Shown here: positions 5,078 through 42,546 of the stretch, piece after piece
Layout: each line of letters begins with the position of its first letter
How positions within the stretch are numbered: the stretch's first letter is position 1
IMG/VR virus record: IMGVR_UViG_3300031902_000020
Coordinates: 1-42,546 of that record
Source: a virus
Length of the DNA: 42,546 nt
Strand: one strand, 5' to 3'
Program-made: the position numbers and the translations under genes
The notes under the pieces: model-generated
The model's input: the letters and a program-made list of their open reading frames with translations, nothing else
Told to the model about the DNA's origin: nothing
Databases searched by the model: none

Positions 5078-5436
5078 CACTTCACCTCAAATGTAAAATA
5101 TTCTCCAAATTTTTCAGGCTCAAATCCAGGTTGCAAAGCTTTATGAAGTGCAGATCGAGCGATGTTGAGCCTGCTTTCAAGATGACTGATGTGATGTCTC
5201 TTGCGCTGAACAAATGAAGCGACGGCTTCTTCTTTTGTAGGATAGGCCCACCGCTTTCTTGATGGAACGCCGCCCCAATGACTGCAAAGCACAAATTTCT
5301 TTTTGCCGTTATACATGATCCAGTCACCATGCGAAGTTTCTTTGATAACACGATGAGCCTCAATGAGAACATCTGCTCTTGGTTCATCTTCCGAAGCCCA
5401 CGCTCTCACTTCAAAAACACGATAAAGAACTTTCAT
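5077..5436 (-). CDS. Hypothetical protein, replication operon
   Basis: 119 residues, basic, with a beta-rich N-terminal half (HGDWIMYNGKKKFVLCSHWGG) and a helical C-terminal half. The middle segment of small residues, Trp and Lys resembles the start of many small phage cytoplasmic proteins, but I cannot name a family. The ATG overlaps the exonuclease stop by ATGA and has a GGGAGAAG ribosome site. Base use is more AT-rich than its neighbours. Confidence 0.7.
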   Translation of the reverse strand: MKVLYRVFEVRAWASEDEPRADVLIEAHRVIKETSHGDWIMYNGKKKFVLCSHWGGVPSRKRWAYPTKEEAVASFVQRKRHHISHLESRLNIARSALHKALQPGFEPEKFGEYFTFEVK

Positions 5437-5945
5437 CGCTTCTCCCTTCGCGCTTCCAGCGCCTCGCAGATCACCTTGAGAGCCCGGCAGTCAGCCAGAG
5501 CCGAGTGAGCGTTTACCATCTTGGCACCAGTCAGAGCGGCATATAAATCCGCCTGCTTCCACCTCTTTCCGCTGTCCATCTGAGCGTCGTGCATGGGGTC
5601 GTGCCAATGCGCGGGCGGAAGCACACGCCCCAGGCGCATGAATTCGTAGCGAAGCACGTTCTGATCAAACGAGCAGTTGTAGGCTGAGACTTTCTTGCTG
5701 ATCAGATACGAGGCTACAGCATCGGCAATTTCGGCAAAGGTCGGGGCGTTCGCCACCATGGCATCCGTGATTCCATGAATGCGCGTGACCTCTGGCGGAA
5801 TGGGGACGGGAGGCTTGACGTAGGAGTGATATTCGAATTCATCGGAGAGGATACAAATCTCAACAATGTAGGGTTGAGCTTCCAGTGGAGCGGCCTGGGG
5901 CAGAAGTAGGCCGGTCGTCTCGGTGTCAAGGAAGAGGGGGAGCAT
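5433..5945 (-). CDS. DnaQ-like 3'-5' exonuclease (DEDDh)
   Basis: A 170-residue DEDDh exonuclease of the DnaQ/epsilon type. Visible catalytic residues are Asp7 and Glu9 in FLDTETTG, Asp94 in YNCSFDQN, and His147 and Asp152 in NAHSALADCRA; the family's IHGITD segment is at 56-61. The open frame extends 25 codons upstream, but ATG 5945 has an AAGGA ribosome site and overlaps the stop of the small membrane gene (TGATG), and the longer form would run through that gene. In bacteria this activity proofreads for DnaE; here it sits in the operon of a DnaE-like polymerase, so the same pairing is likely. The length fits a bare exonuclease domain without the clamp-binding tail. Confidence 0.9.
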   Translation of the reverse strand: MLPLFLDTETTGLLLPQAAPLEAQPYIVEICILSDEFEYHSYVKPPVPIPPEVTRIHGITDAMVANAPTFAEIADAVASYLISKKVSAYNCSFDQNVLRYEFMRLGRVLPPAHWHDPMHDAQMDSGKRWKQADLYAALTGAKMVNAHSALADCRALKVICEALEARREKR

Positions 5946-6073
5946 CAGCAGTTCCTTATCAAAATGAGCAGCAACACGGCGGCCAAAAGCCCAAGGAAAA
6001 AGCCCCACGCCTGATTCCAAAAATCTCGCTTCGCAAGTTTCACGGCGTCAGGATCGCGGGGCCATTTGGGCAT
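5945..6073 (-). CDS. Small single-pass membrane protein (42 aa)
   Basis: A 42-residue gene starting at ATG 6073 with AGGAG nine bases upstream and ending in a TGATG overlap with the exonuclease start. The first 22 residues are charged (PKWPRDPDAVKLAKRDFWNQ) and the rest is one strongly hydrophobic segment (FFLGLLAAVLLLILI), so it should be a single-pass membrane protein with the N-terminus inside. Function unknown. Its ribosome site immediately follows the structured segment at 6093-6228, so its translation may be controlled by it. Confidence 0.65.
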   Translation of the reverse strand: MPKWPRDPDAVKLAKRDFWNQAWGFFLGLLAAVLLLILIRNC

Positions 6074-6092
6074 TGTCGGGTTCTCCTGAAAA

Positions 6093-6228
6093 GAATAGCG
6101 GCCCCTTGGTAGCCGTCCAGATTGGGATATTGATTTACTGGACCTGCGACCGTCCACGCGCCCCAAGGGTTCCCGGCCTCAGAGAAGATTCAGCTTATCT
6201 TGCCCAGCCTATTCTCTCGCCGCTATTC
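6093..6228 (-). ncRNA. Candidate structured RNA, three-way junction
   Basis: This fills most of the gap between the genes ending at 6241 and starting at 6073. Perfect complementary pairs by position: P1 6093-6102 with 6219-6228 (10 bp), P2 6103-6109 with 6163-6169 (7 bp, stacked directly on P1), P3 inside P2 6115-6120 with 6138-6143 (6 bp, 17-nt loop), P4 6181-6186 with 6212-6217 (6 bp). Only one base separates P4 from P1, so the arms form a compact junction. Read leftward, P1 is followed by UUUU and then the AGGAG of the 42-aa gene. It may be a cis-regulatory leader, an attenuator, or a free RNA. The stems are seen; the role is inferred. Confidence 0.5.
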
Positions 6229-6240
6229 AAAGATCAAATC

Positions 6241-7107
6241 CTATTCGTCAATGTCCTTCTCAGGCGCCGCATGAACCGCGCCACCGACCACGCTCTCACG
6301 GAACGCGGAGCATTCATCCAGGAGCTTCTCGCCGCCCAGGTCAAGCGCCCGCGCTTCGGACGCAAAGGCCCACAGGAGCCACGCGCCAAGCTCACCGCTG
6401 GTTTCCTCGCTGGTGAACCTGAAGGCCCGCCAGAACATCGGGAAGGCCCGCAGGCGACCGCTGGCATCCGTCTCGCGGAACATCTGGATATTGCTCGCCA
6501 GTTTCTTGGAGACTTTGAATTGGCTCTTGTTCAGGCCGAAGACGGCAGGCATCCAGGACTTGCCTTCATCCTGGGAGGCCATGCCATACCAGGCGCCAGA
6601 CATCACGACTTCATTGCCGCTGGGGAGAAGCTGATTCCCTTTGTCGTTCGGGGTGCATTTCAGGAGGATCGAGTCATCCGTCCCGTGGAACGCCGCCGGG
6701 GTGCGCTTGGGGGTCCACTCCACGTATTCGCGCCGATAGGCGCAAGGGATAAAGAGGAAACCCTTCTCGCGGTTGACGACGGAATTATCCATCGTGAAGA
6801 TAAAGTCGCCGGGATGAGCGCCCTTGATGTATTCCGGGCGGCTCTTGATGACACACGGGCTCGTTCCCTGCGCGAGCTTAATGCGCGGGATGGCCATGTC
6901 CTGCTGATCGAAGTCGCTTCCCGCCTCTTCCTTGTAGGAGGCCCACTTGCTCACGGCGCCGGGAGCAGGCGTGGCGACGGATGCTTTGGGCACCGTGGCG
7001 ACAGCCGTAGAGACTTCCGGGTGAGGCAGAAGCGGCACTTCGGCTTCCGGCTCCTTCTTGGGACGAGGCGTCTTCTTGACCGCCGCTTTGGTATTCGTAG
7101 CTCTCAT
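6241..7107 (-). CDS. Putative ssDNA-binding-like replication protein
   Basis: 288 residues. The first ~60 are Lys/Pro/Ala-rich and probably disordered; the core starts at DFDQQDMAIPRIKLAQGTSP and continues with alternating strands (GDFIFTMDNS, GFLFIPCAYRREYVEW); the last residues are acidic (PEKDIDE). The layout of a beta-rich core with a short acidic tail is that of many phage single-strand-binding proteins, and the gene lies among replication genes. The family itself is one I know only as conserved phage protein, so ssDNA binding is an inference. The ATG at 7107 has a GAGG ribosome site. A structured segment follows its stop. Confidence 0.5.
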   Translation of the reverse strand: MRATNTKAAVKKTPRPKKEPEAEVPLLPHPEVSTAVATVPKASVATPAPGAVSKWASYKEEAGSDFDQQDMAIPRIKLAQGTSPCVIKSRPEYIKGAHPGDFIFTMDNSVVNREKGFLFIPCAYRREYVEWTPKRTPAAFHGTDDSILLKCTPNDKGNQLLPSGNEVVMSGAWYGMASQDEGKSWMPAVFGLNKSQFKVSKKLASNIQMFRETDASGRLRAFPMFWRAFRFTSEETSGELGAWLLWAFASEARALDLGGEKLLDECSAFRESVVGGAVHAAPEKDIDE

Positions 7108-12145: not shown

Positions 12146-12559
12146 ATGGGACTTGATGCGCTCGGAATCGGAGCCATTGCGGATCTGGCCAAGGATCTAG
12201 TGGGGCGGTTCTTCCCGGACAAGACGGAGCAGGAAAAGGCTCAGATGAGTCTGATTCTCACCACTATGCAAAACCAGATGGCCATGAACCAGGGCCAGAT
12301 GGATATCAACAAGATCGAGGCTGCAAACCCGACCCTCTTTGTTTCCGGCTGGCGTCCTTTTGTGGGGTGGGTCTGCGGATCGGCTTGCGCTTGGAACTGG
12401 ATCGGATTGCCGGTTGCCAATTTCCTGGCAGCTGCTTTCAAACATCCCATCGGAATTGCTCCCGCCGATCTCACCCAAATGCTGCCTCTTCTGATGGGGC
12501 TTTTGGGGATGGGCGCCCTTCGCACTTATGAAAAGACGCAAGGCGTTGCCGCCAAGTAG
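12146..12559 (+). CDS. Holin, 3TM family
   Basis: 137 residues with the hallmark SGWRPFVGWVCG of the three-transmembrane phage holin family (3TM_Phage_holin). A charged N-terminal half (FFPDKTEQEKAQM, then a Met/Gln-rich helix) precedes hydrophobic segments at about 66-90 and 107-127. It starts nine bases after the previous gene with a consensus TAAGGAGG ribosome site. It should make the membrane lesion that lets the M15 endolysin out. Confidence 0.85.
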   Translation: MGLDALGIGAIADLAKDLVGRFFPDKTEQEKAQMSLILTTMQNQMAMNQGQMDINKIEAANPTLFVSGWRPFVGWVCGSACAWNWIGLPVANFLAAAFKHPIGIAPADLTQMLPLLMGLLGMGALRTYEKTQGVAAK

Positions 12560-12591: not shown

Positions 12592-12628
12592 TTCAGCCCC
12601 GATTCTCGGTTTGAGTTTCGGGGCTGAA
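12592..12628. terminator. Convergent terminator hairpin
   Basis: TTCAGCCCCGA (12592-12602) pairs perfectly with TCGGGGCTGAA (12618-12628), an 11-bp stem with a 15-base loop. In the leftward direction a CTTTTTCTC tail follows, a good intrinsic terminator for the accessory block; rightward the tail is ATCATTTGGGG. It lies in the 139-base gap between the convergent lysis and accessory genes, which holds no other gene I can see. Confidence 0.8.
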
Positions 12629-16969: not shown

Positions 16970-17520
16970 GACGGCTCCTGAATCTCGGGACATTCAGGCA
17001 AAAACTGATGAATGATATCGGAGTGGACGTCACTGGCGGCGGCCCAGGCGGCCCAGGCGTCACTGGCGGCCCTGGCGGCGGCCCAGGCGGCGTCACTGGC
17101 GGCCCTGGCGACGGCTCTGGCGGCCCTGGCGGCGGCCCAGGCGGCGTCACTGGCGGCGTCACTGGCGGCGTCACTGGCGGCGGCCCAGGCGGCGTCACTG
17201 GCGGCAATTAAATCTTGTTCGGTAGCATTACCGATGGCAAAACGCTCAGCTACCTCCACAGCATTGCGACTCCGAGGATCGGTCAGGAGATCCCAGACCT
17301 TCTGGCCATTGGCCAAAGGGGTTTCCCGGACAAAAGCACATGCGATGAGACGATAATTTTGGGGATCATCGTATTTCATCGTATCCAGGAGCCAGAGCAT
17401 CCAATCTGCTCGGCGACAGTTCCGCCAGGCAGTGGCAAGATCGGGCTGGGTTGCGGCCCATACCTTGGCCTCGTCACAAGCACCCAGGCGGATTAAAAGA
17501 TCGTTGAGGGGTTCTGACAT
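16966..17520 (-). CDS. Imm5-like protein with Ala/Trp repeat region
   Basis: 184 residues. Residues ~10-50 (RLGACDEAKVWAATQPDLATAWRNCRRADWMLWLLD) match the domain often annotated as Imm5-like putative immunity protein, found widely in bacteria and phages with a following stretch of AWAAA/SDAAWAAAR repeats. Here that stretch spans about 106-164 and is nearly pure Ala with Ser-Asp, Trp and Arg. Despite the label, a toxin partner is not visible nearby and the true role is not established. AGGAGGTATGAA precedes the start. Confidence 0.65.
   Translation of the reverse strand: MSEPLNDLLIRLGACDEAKVWAATQPDLATAWRNCRRADWMLWLLDTMKYDDPQNYRLIACAFVRETPLANGQKVWDLLTDPRSRNAVEVAERFAIGNATEQDLIAASDAAWAAASDAASDAASDAAWAAARAARAVARAASDAAWAAARAASDAWAAWAAASDVHSDIIHQFLPECPEIQEPS
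17029..17205. repeat. GC-rich low-complexity repeat coding AASDAAW units
   Basis: GGCGGC, GGCGTCACT and GGCCCAGGC units alternate over about 180 bases. All are multiples of three, so the region can expand or shrink in frame. The opposite strand reads as a collagen-like Gly-Pro/Gly-Val-Thr frame by coincidence of composition. Confidence 0.8.
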
Positions 17521-25938: not shown

Positions 25939-25969
25939 CGGCCCCTGAGCAATCTCTGTTCAGGGGCCG
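25939..25969 (+). terminator. Hairpin after the major capsid gene
   Basis: CGGCCCCTGA (25939-25948) pairs perfectly with TCAGGGGCCG (25960-25969), a 10-bp stem with an 11-base loop, followed by CTTTC. It lies 18 bases after the capsid stop. The short U run suggests partial termination, lowering downstream expression. Confidence 0.7.
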
Positions 25970-42207: not shown

Positions 42208-42546
42208 GCGAATGCCTCTTTGAGAAGAAGATCGTGGATCTGCTCGGCCAGTTCATAGATCGTAATGACTGGCTTCACTCTCGGCCAGAGTAACCGATAT
42301 TCGACGTTTCGATCCTGAGCATCTCGGACATCATGGGCGTTCAGCACCAGAACACCAAAGGATTTCATTTGCTCCTGGCGCTTGATCTGGATCGCGGTGA
42401 GCGGTTCTTTCCGCTGATGAGGGGCGACGATCTTCAGTTCCACCCAGCCGGTATTGCCGTGCTTGGCAACGAAGAGGTCAGGGACGCCTCGGTTGGTTGG
42501 CCCCGTCTCGATGGCCAGCGCGAGACAGCTTCGTGCTTCCAGGGCC
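42204..42546 (-). CDS. VRR-NUC-type nuclease, C-terminal part (starts at 165 of the other end)
   Basis: The C-terminal part of the 126-residue nuclease that begins at 165-163. The segment seen here includes the VPDLFV and GWVELK catalytic motifs (repeated in the terminal overlap) and then HQRKEPLTAIQIKRQEQMKSFG, with the conserved Gln, and a helical end (ELAEQIHDLLLKEAFA). The open frame runs off the end of the window; joining 42419 to 1 restores the whole gene without a frame change. See the entry at 1-165. Confidence 0.85.
   Translation of the reverse strand, partial: ALEARSCLALAIETGPTNRGVPDLFVAKHGNTGWVELKIVAPHQRKEPLTAIQIKRQEQMKSFGVLVLNAHDVRDAQDRNVEYRLLWPRVKPVITIYELAEQIHDLLLKEAFA
42420..42546. 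repeat. Terminal direct repeat, right copy
   Basis: Exact copy of bases 1-127. Removing one copy gives a circle of about 42,419 bp. Confidence 0.9.

Follow-up and report, generated by a model that had tools for sequence, protein, structure and literature searches.

A Probable Terminator-like Hairpin with a Long Folded Loop among the Leftward Replication Genes of a Phage

The Intergenic Element and Its Gene Context

The window, by which we mean the whole stretch of DNA analysed (42,546 bases), is an IMG/VR virus record. It carries identical direct terminal repeats of 127 bp at 1–127 and 42420–42546, so the genome is probably complete. Replication genes form a leftward run from about 10,968 to 162, in the order VapE-like helicase/primase, small ORFs, a DUF7307 gene, a Pam3_gp34-like gene, a 42-aa ORF, an exonuclease, small ORFs, an HslV-like protein, a DNA polymerase III alpha-like polymerase, and a helicase. 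The DUF7307 gene is Pam3 gp33-like, and Pam3_33 is annotated as a host-nuclease inhibitor. The sole large gap of the run (6074–6240, 167 nt) lies between the Pam3_gp34-like gene and the 42-aa membrane ORF. The upstream gene (6241–7107, minus strand) encodes a protein of unknown function (PF23977/phrog_2402; Pfam E 1.1e-41, PHROGs E 5.2e-39), for which AlphaFold gave no usable structure (pLDDT 28.8). The 42-aa ORF (5945–6073, minus strand, with its ATG at 6073) has a hydrophobic stretch that, read by eye, resembles a membrane helix, and its stop codon runs into the probable ATG start of the gene for a DEDD/RNase_T exonuclease, a DNA polymerase exonuclease subunit (5433–5948, minus strand).

The element studied here (6093–6228) takes up 136 of the 167 nt of the gap, in agreement with the initial annotation, which had it filling the gap almost exactly. 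The four perfect stems proposed there (10, 7, 6, and 6 bp) are all present on the leftward strand, at the places given for them. P1 is a perfect 10-bp pairing of its 5' arm, GAAUAGCGGC (6219–6228), with its 3' arm, GCCGCUAUUC (6093–6102), at pair probabilities of 0.97–1.0, and it encloses a loop of 116 nt that is itself folded. P2 (7 bp, pair probability 0.98–0.99) joins CCCUUGG (6163–6169) to CCAAGGG (6103–6109); the latter directly adjoins P1, and the two stems could stack coaxially. P3 (6 bp, pair probability 0.68) is formed by GUCCAG (6138–6143) and CUGGAC (6115–6120). P4, between AGAGAA (6212–6217) and UUCUCU (6181–6186), is weak: its 6 bp have a pair probability of about 0.2 and are absent from both the minimum free energy (MFE) and centroid structures, the former giving the region other partners. 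Thus, of the single nested four-stem fold originally envisaged, P1 and P2 stand (about 0.99, also within a 431-nt context), but P3 is only partly supported and P4 hardly at all.

The 3' arm of P1 runs into a U-run. As had been noted, the fold is followed in the leftward transcript by UUUU (6092–6089) and then by AGGAG (6087–6083), the ribosome-binding site of the 42-aa ORF, which lies outside the fold. The 3' arm reads, as GCCGC-UAUUCUUUU, like the 3' half of a terminator. The string GGGGCCGCUAUUCUUUU found here also stands at the end of compact hairpins in L010 and L014, two viral contigs unrelated to the window, and so can act as the 3' half of an ordinary U-tailed hairpin.

Stability of the Fold and Searches for Relatives

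Folding with ViennaRNA gives the leftward 136-mer an energy of -51.4 kcal/mol, with a z of -2.29 (6/200 shuffles as good); a larger shuffle set gives a z of -2.15 (24/1028). Among windows of equal size across the genome, whose z values are noisy because each comes from only 20 shuffles, the mean is -0.29 and 42 of 624 reach -2.29. The entire 167-nt gap has a z of -0.50, with 84 of 300 shuffles as good. The folding with shuffled controls that the initial annotation had proposed thus returns only modest stability for the 136 nt (z about -2.1) and little for the gap as a whole (z -0.5), and, with 42/624 windows as extreme, the element does not stand clearly beyond dinucleotide shuffles in the manner of a riboswitch. 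The claim of much more structure than a terminator requires is correct as to size, but the statistics do not bear it out.

The inverted repeat gives a sharper result. The window has 14 perfect 10-bp inverted repeats within 200 nt, against 8.35 in shuffles, so that such a repeat by itself is no rarity here. When the gap was shuffled 20,000 times, however, only 9 shuffles had a P1-type 10-bp repeat with at least UUU after its 3' arm, which makes P1 plus the U-run the significant part. In the folding models, the robust portion of the element is P1, P2, and UUUU.

Other repeats and hairpins occur elsewhere in the window. The segment 18620–19030 lies in an ORF-poor region (no ORF of at least 100 aa between 17520 and 19353) and has three copies of GTGACGCA-like repeats together with dense direct and inverted TGAAAGG/CCTTTCA repeats; its fold has a z of about -5 (20 shuffles). 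It is a candidate replication origin or binding-site array, and is more striking than the 6093–6228 element. Tandem repeats rich in GGCGGC (13 registered copies, spaced 9 and 12 bases apart) overlap a minus-strand ORF at 17019–17205. A clear terminator hairpin, with a TTCAGCCCCGA stem and then a T-run on the minus strand, is found at 12592–12628, just past a rightward ORF that ends at 12559. At 25939–25969, right after the major head protein gene, a compact hairpin (CGGCCCCTGA..TCAGGGGCCG, then CTTTC) is probably also a terminator.

Rfam covariance models gave no match above the gathering score in the window (the one match, at 15.5 bits, is a chance one and lies outside the element), in line with the first impression that the element belongs to no recognised class. 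Three related viral contigs were found, and were found again by protein scans with several queries and a degenerate motif; the scans added only one distant exonuclease at 30% identity. The closest contig matches the window at 99.9% identity where the two overlap, with no differences within the element. The other two, L002 and L003, keep the gene order, with about 70–77% DNA identity in the flanking genes, but their gaps share no alignable sequence with the window gap and, at about 62–66 nt, are about 100 nt shorter. No homologue or copy of the element was found in bacterial genome contigs, nor was it found by blastn in phages and plasmids; no second copy lies within the window, and the sequence inside P1 is similar to nothing in the collections searched. 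When portions of P1 and P2 were used as DNA search patterns, the matches were mostly chance ones; one of the matched loci, L038, proved on examination not to be this element.

Hairpins after Pam3_gp34-like Genes

The short gaps of L002 and L003 are each spanned by a hairpin of their own. In L002 it is AAAUACCCCAGCCAGUAUUUACUGGCUGGGGUAUUUAUUU, a perfect 17-bp stem closed by a 4-nt loop, then UUU, whose z values are -6.2 and -8.1 (0/200 and 0/300 shuffles as good) and which, by its sequence, is a textbook terminator. In L003 a long stem ends in GAUGCUGGUUU and is followed by GGUUU (z -2.5 and -3.3; 3/200 and 0/300 shuffles as good). Both are unrelated in sequence to the window element. P1 nevertheless has the architecture of the L002 hairpin, with an AU-rich base that pairs into the U tract, and after each of the three gap hairpins the ribosome site and the start of the small ORF are similar: GGAGAACC-GACAAUG at the ribosome site is kept in L002, and L003 has GAGGACCUGACAAUG. 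The small ORFs of L002 and L003 also have a hydrophobic stretch like that of the 42-aa ORF.

The comparison was widened with 19 further phages that carry the gene family, taken from an annotated phage collection, for a total of 22 including the window, L002, and L003; a near-duplicate, phage NH-4, was excluded from the final counts. The homologues of 6241–7107 (loci L002, L003, and L022–L048) come from phages of Pseudomonas, Vibrio, Xanthomonas, Serratia, Bordetella, and others. The ends of 96 other genes at these loci served as controls. An initial loose terminator scan (17/23 versus 23/100) had many false positives among the controls, and stricter criteria were adopted instead. Of the 22 phages, 21 have a compact hairpin that reaches -12 kcal/mol and lies no more than 90 nt past the stop, versus 31 of the 96 controls (Fisher 3e-8), and when a U-run is also required the counts are 13/22 versus 8/96 (Fisher 7e-7). 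Both Fisher values assume more independence than the data have, because many of the control ends fall inside the following gene and there is relatedness among some of the 22 phages. In a shuffle test that is independent of the control gene ends, the 85 nt downstream of each stop were compared with 40 shuffles of themselves, and 15 of the 22 beat 38 or more. In DSL-LC04, BUCT555, PAKlein3, and K294, the hairpin at the site is strong and the U-run is not clear. A strong hairpin right after the stop thus recurs across the Pam3_gp34-like family, and its sequence is not conserved.

The lone phage of the 22 without a compact hairpin is that of the window, which has the P1/P2 fold in its place; its best short hairpin in the first 85–90 nt after the stop is only -8.3 kcal/mol, weaker than in shuffles. 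For two of the phages, Pseudomonas phage YuA (gp05) and Vibrio phage phiVC8 (p32), the deposited annotation places predicted rho-independent terminators at the end of the gene or beside it. These match the window element in gene family and location, but they are compact hairpins of unrelated sequence. A search of the available literature for mapped terminators in Pbunavirus or YuA yielded nothing usable.

A Probable Terminator-like Hairpin and Its Alternatives

These comparisons indicate that the element is most likely a larger version of the ordinary terminator-like hairpin of related phages, and not a new RNA class. Our preferred reading, to which we give a probability of about 0.6, is that on the leftward replication transcript the element acts as a leaky terminator within the operon, or as a hairpin at a 3' end, and that its structured loop is unusually long. 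The usual compact stem at this site would have been swapped for one with a folded 116-nt loop; the same role is proposed on four grounds, namely where the element lies, its U-run, the neighbour gene that it shares with the relatives, and the P1 architecture. As in intrinsic terminators of phage operons, the stem runs into a U-run right after a stop and before the next ribosome-binding site, and many phages have such a hairpin at this position after a gene of this family. A 10-bp stem stands directly before the U-rich tract, which is UUUU, or UAUUCUUUU if the AU-rich base of P1 is counted. Unlike such terminators, the window has only four Us after P1, with the AU-rich P1 base overlapping the U tract, and its loop measures 116 nt, with stems of its own, instead of the usual 3–9 nt. 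A compact GC-rich hairpin with a loop of about 3–10 nt and a U-run was sought and none qualifies, so the element is termed terminator-like and not a canonical terminator.

From the sequence, position, predicted fold, and recurrence in relatives we infer termination, leakiness, and a stoichiometric purpose, as follows. As RNA polymerase exits the Pam3_gp34-like gene, P1 would close while the UAUUCUUUU tract is synthesised, the adjoining P2 bringing the P1 arms together. A fraction of the transcripts would end at this tract, and the hairpin, capping the resulting 3' end, would slow decay from the 3' side. Other transcripts would read through into the membrane ORF and the exonuclease, polymerase, and helicase genes, so that the product of the first gene would be made in excess of the downstream enzymes. 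A simple sigma-70 scan of the gap found no promoter-like site for the downstream genes, which implies that the site leaks, and short U-runs fit a leaky site. Against the preferred reading stand the lack of a compact terminator in the window, the U-run of only four, the modest overall fold statistics, and the 116-nt loop, for which closure is expected to be slower than in a normal terminator.

A possible variant, less probable than the general reading of which it is a sub-case and not an exclusive rival, is that P1 and its U-run form a real terminator around ~116 nt of neutral filler, such as gene debris, in which the P2–P4 pairings are incidental. The whole-gap z of -0.50, the weak P4 and partial P3, the gaps of relatives shorter by about 100 nt, and an inner sequence that resembles nothing found would all agree with this, but P2 abuts P1 at a pair probability of about 0.99 and would aid its closure. 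It is rather unlikely that the hairpin instead processes or stabilises mRNA, separating the stability of two transcript parts without termination. Intergenic hairpins that protect or process phage mRNAs are known from the T7 RNase III sites and the 3' hairpins of T4 gene 32, which are likewise placed between a replication gene and downstream genes but bear no sequence relation to the window element. The strong hairpins without a clear U-run in the four relatives named above, the shortness of the U-runs, and the essential replication genes downstream favour such a role. It is harder to reconcile with a U-run directly after the stem in 13 of the 22 phages, and the 17 base pairs of P1 and P2, broken by the junction, are short for an RNase III substrate.

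The initial annotation had favoured a new structured RNA, possibly a riboregulator, an attenuator, or a stable phage RNA. Of these the attenuator comes near the preferred reading, a terminator-type hairpin being present here in nearly all relatives. The new class or riboregulator is not upheld: relatives with 70–77% flanking DNA identity have simple, unrelated hairpins at the site, and viral contigs, bacterial genomes, phages, and plasmids yielded no other copy. A regulated element specific to the phage lineage, whether riboswitch, protein-sensing attenuator, or free small RNA, is accordingly improbable. A junction-type fold beside a ribosome-binding site would suit it, as would an alternative pairing seen by eye between GGCC upstream of P2 and the GGCC that starts the 3' arm of P1, but there is no Rfam match, no conserved sequence in the 70% relatives, and no second copy anywhere searched, the fold stability is near that of shuffles, and AGGAG lies outside the fold. 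Equally doubtful is its more specific form, in which the multi-branched interior of P1 would respond to a ligand, or to the protein of the upstream gene, and so control how much transcription reaches the polymerase genes; such an attenuator would descend from the plain terminator that the relatives retain at this site. Two further readings were rejected. A coding gap, as an in-frame TTG extension of the 42-aa ORF, has no visible ribosome site, and the gaps of relatives are too short for it; a mobile element with P1 as terminal repeats would call for a second copy, and none occurs in the window or elsewhere.

If the terminator-like reading is right, the element adds one more mid-operon terminator to those of phages, and its long folded loop would offer a test case for the upper size of terminator loops. 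Of wider note is that the Pam3_gp34-like family has a 3'-end hairpin in phages of many proteobacterial hosts although the sequence of the hairpin has wholly changed, which suggests that the dosage of this gene relative to the downstream genes matters.
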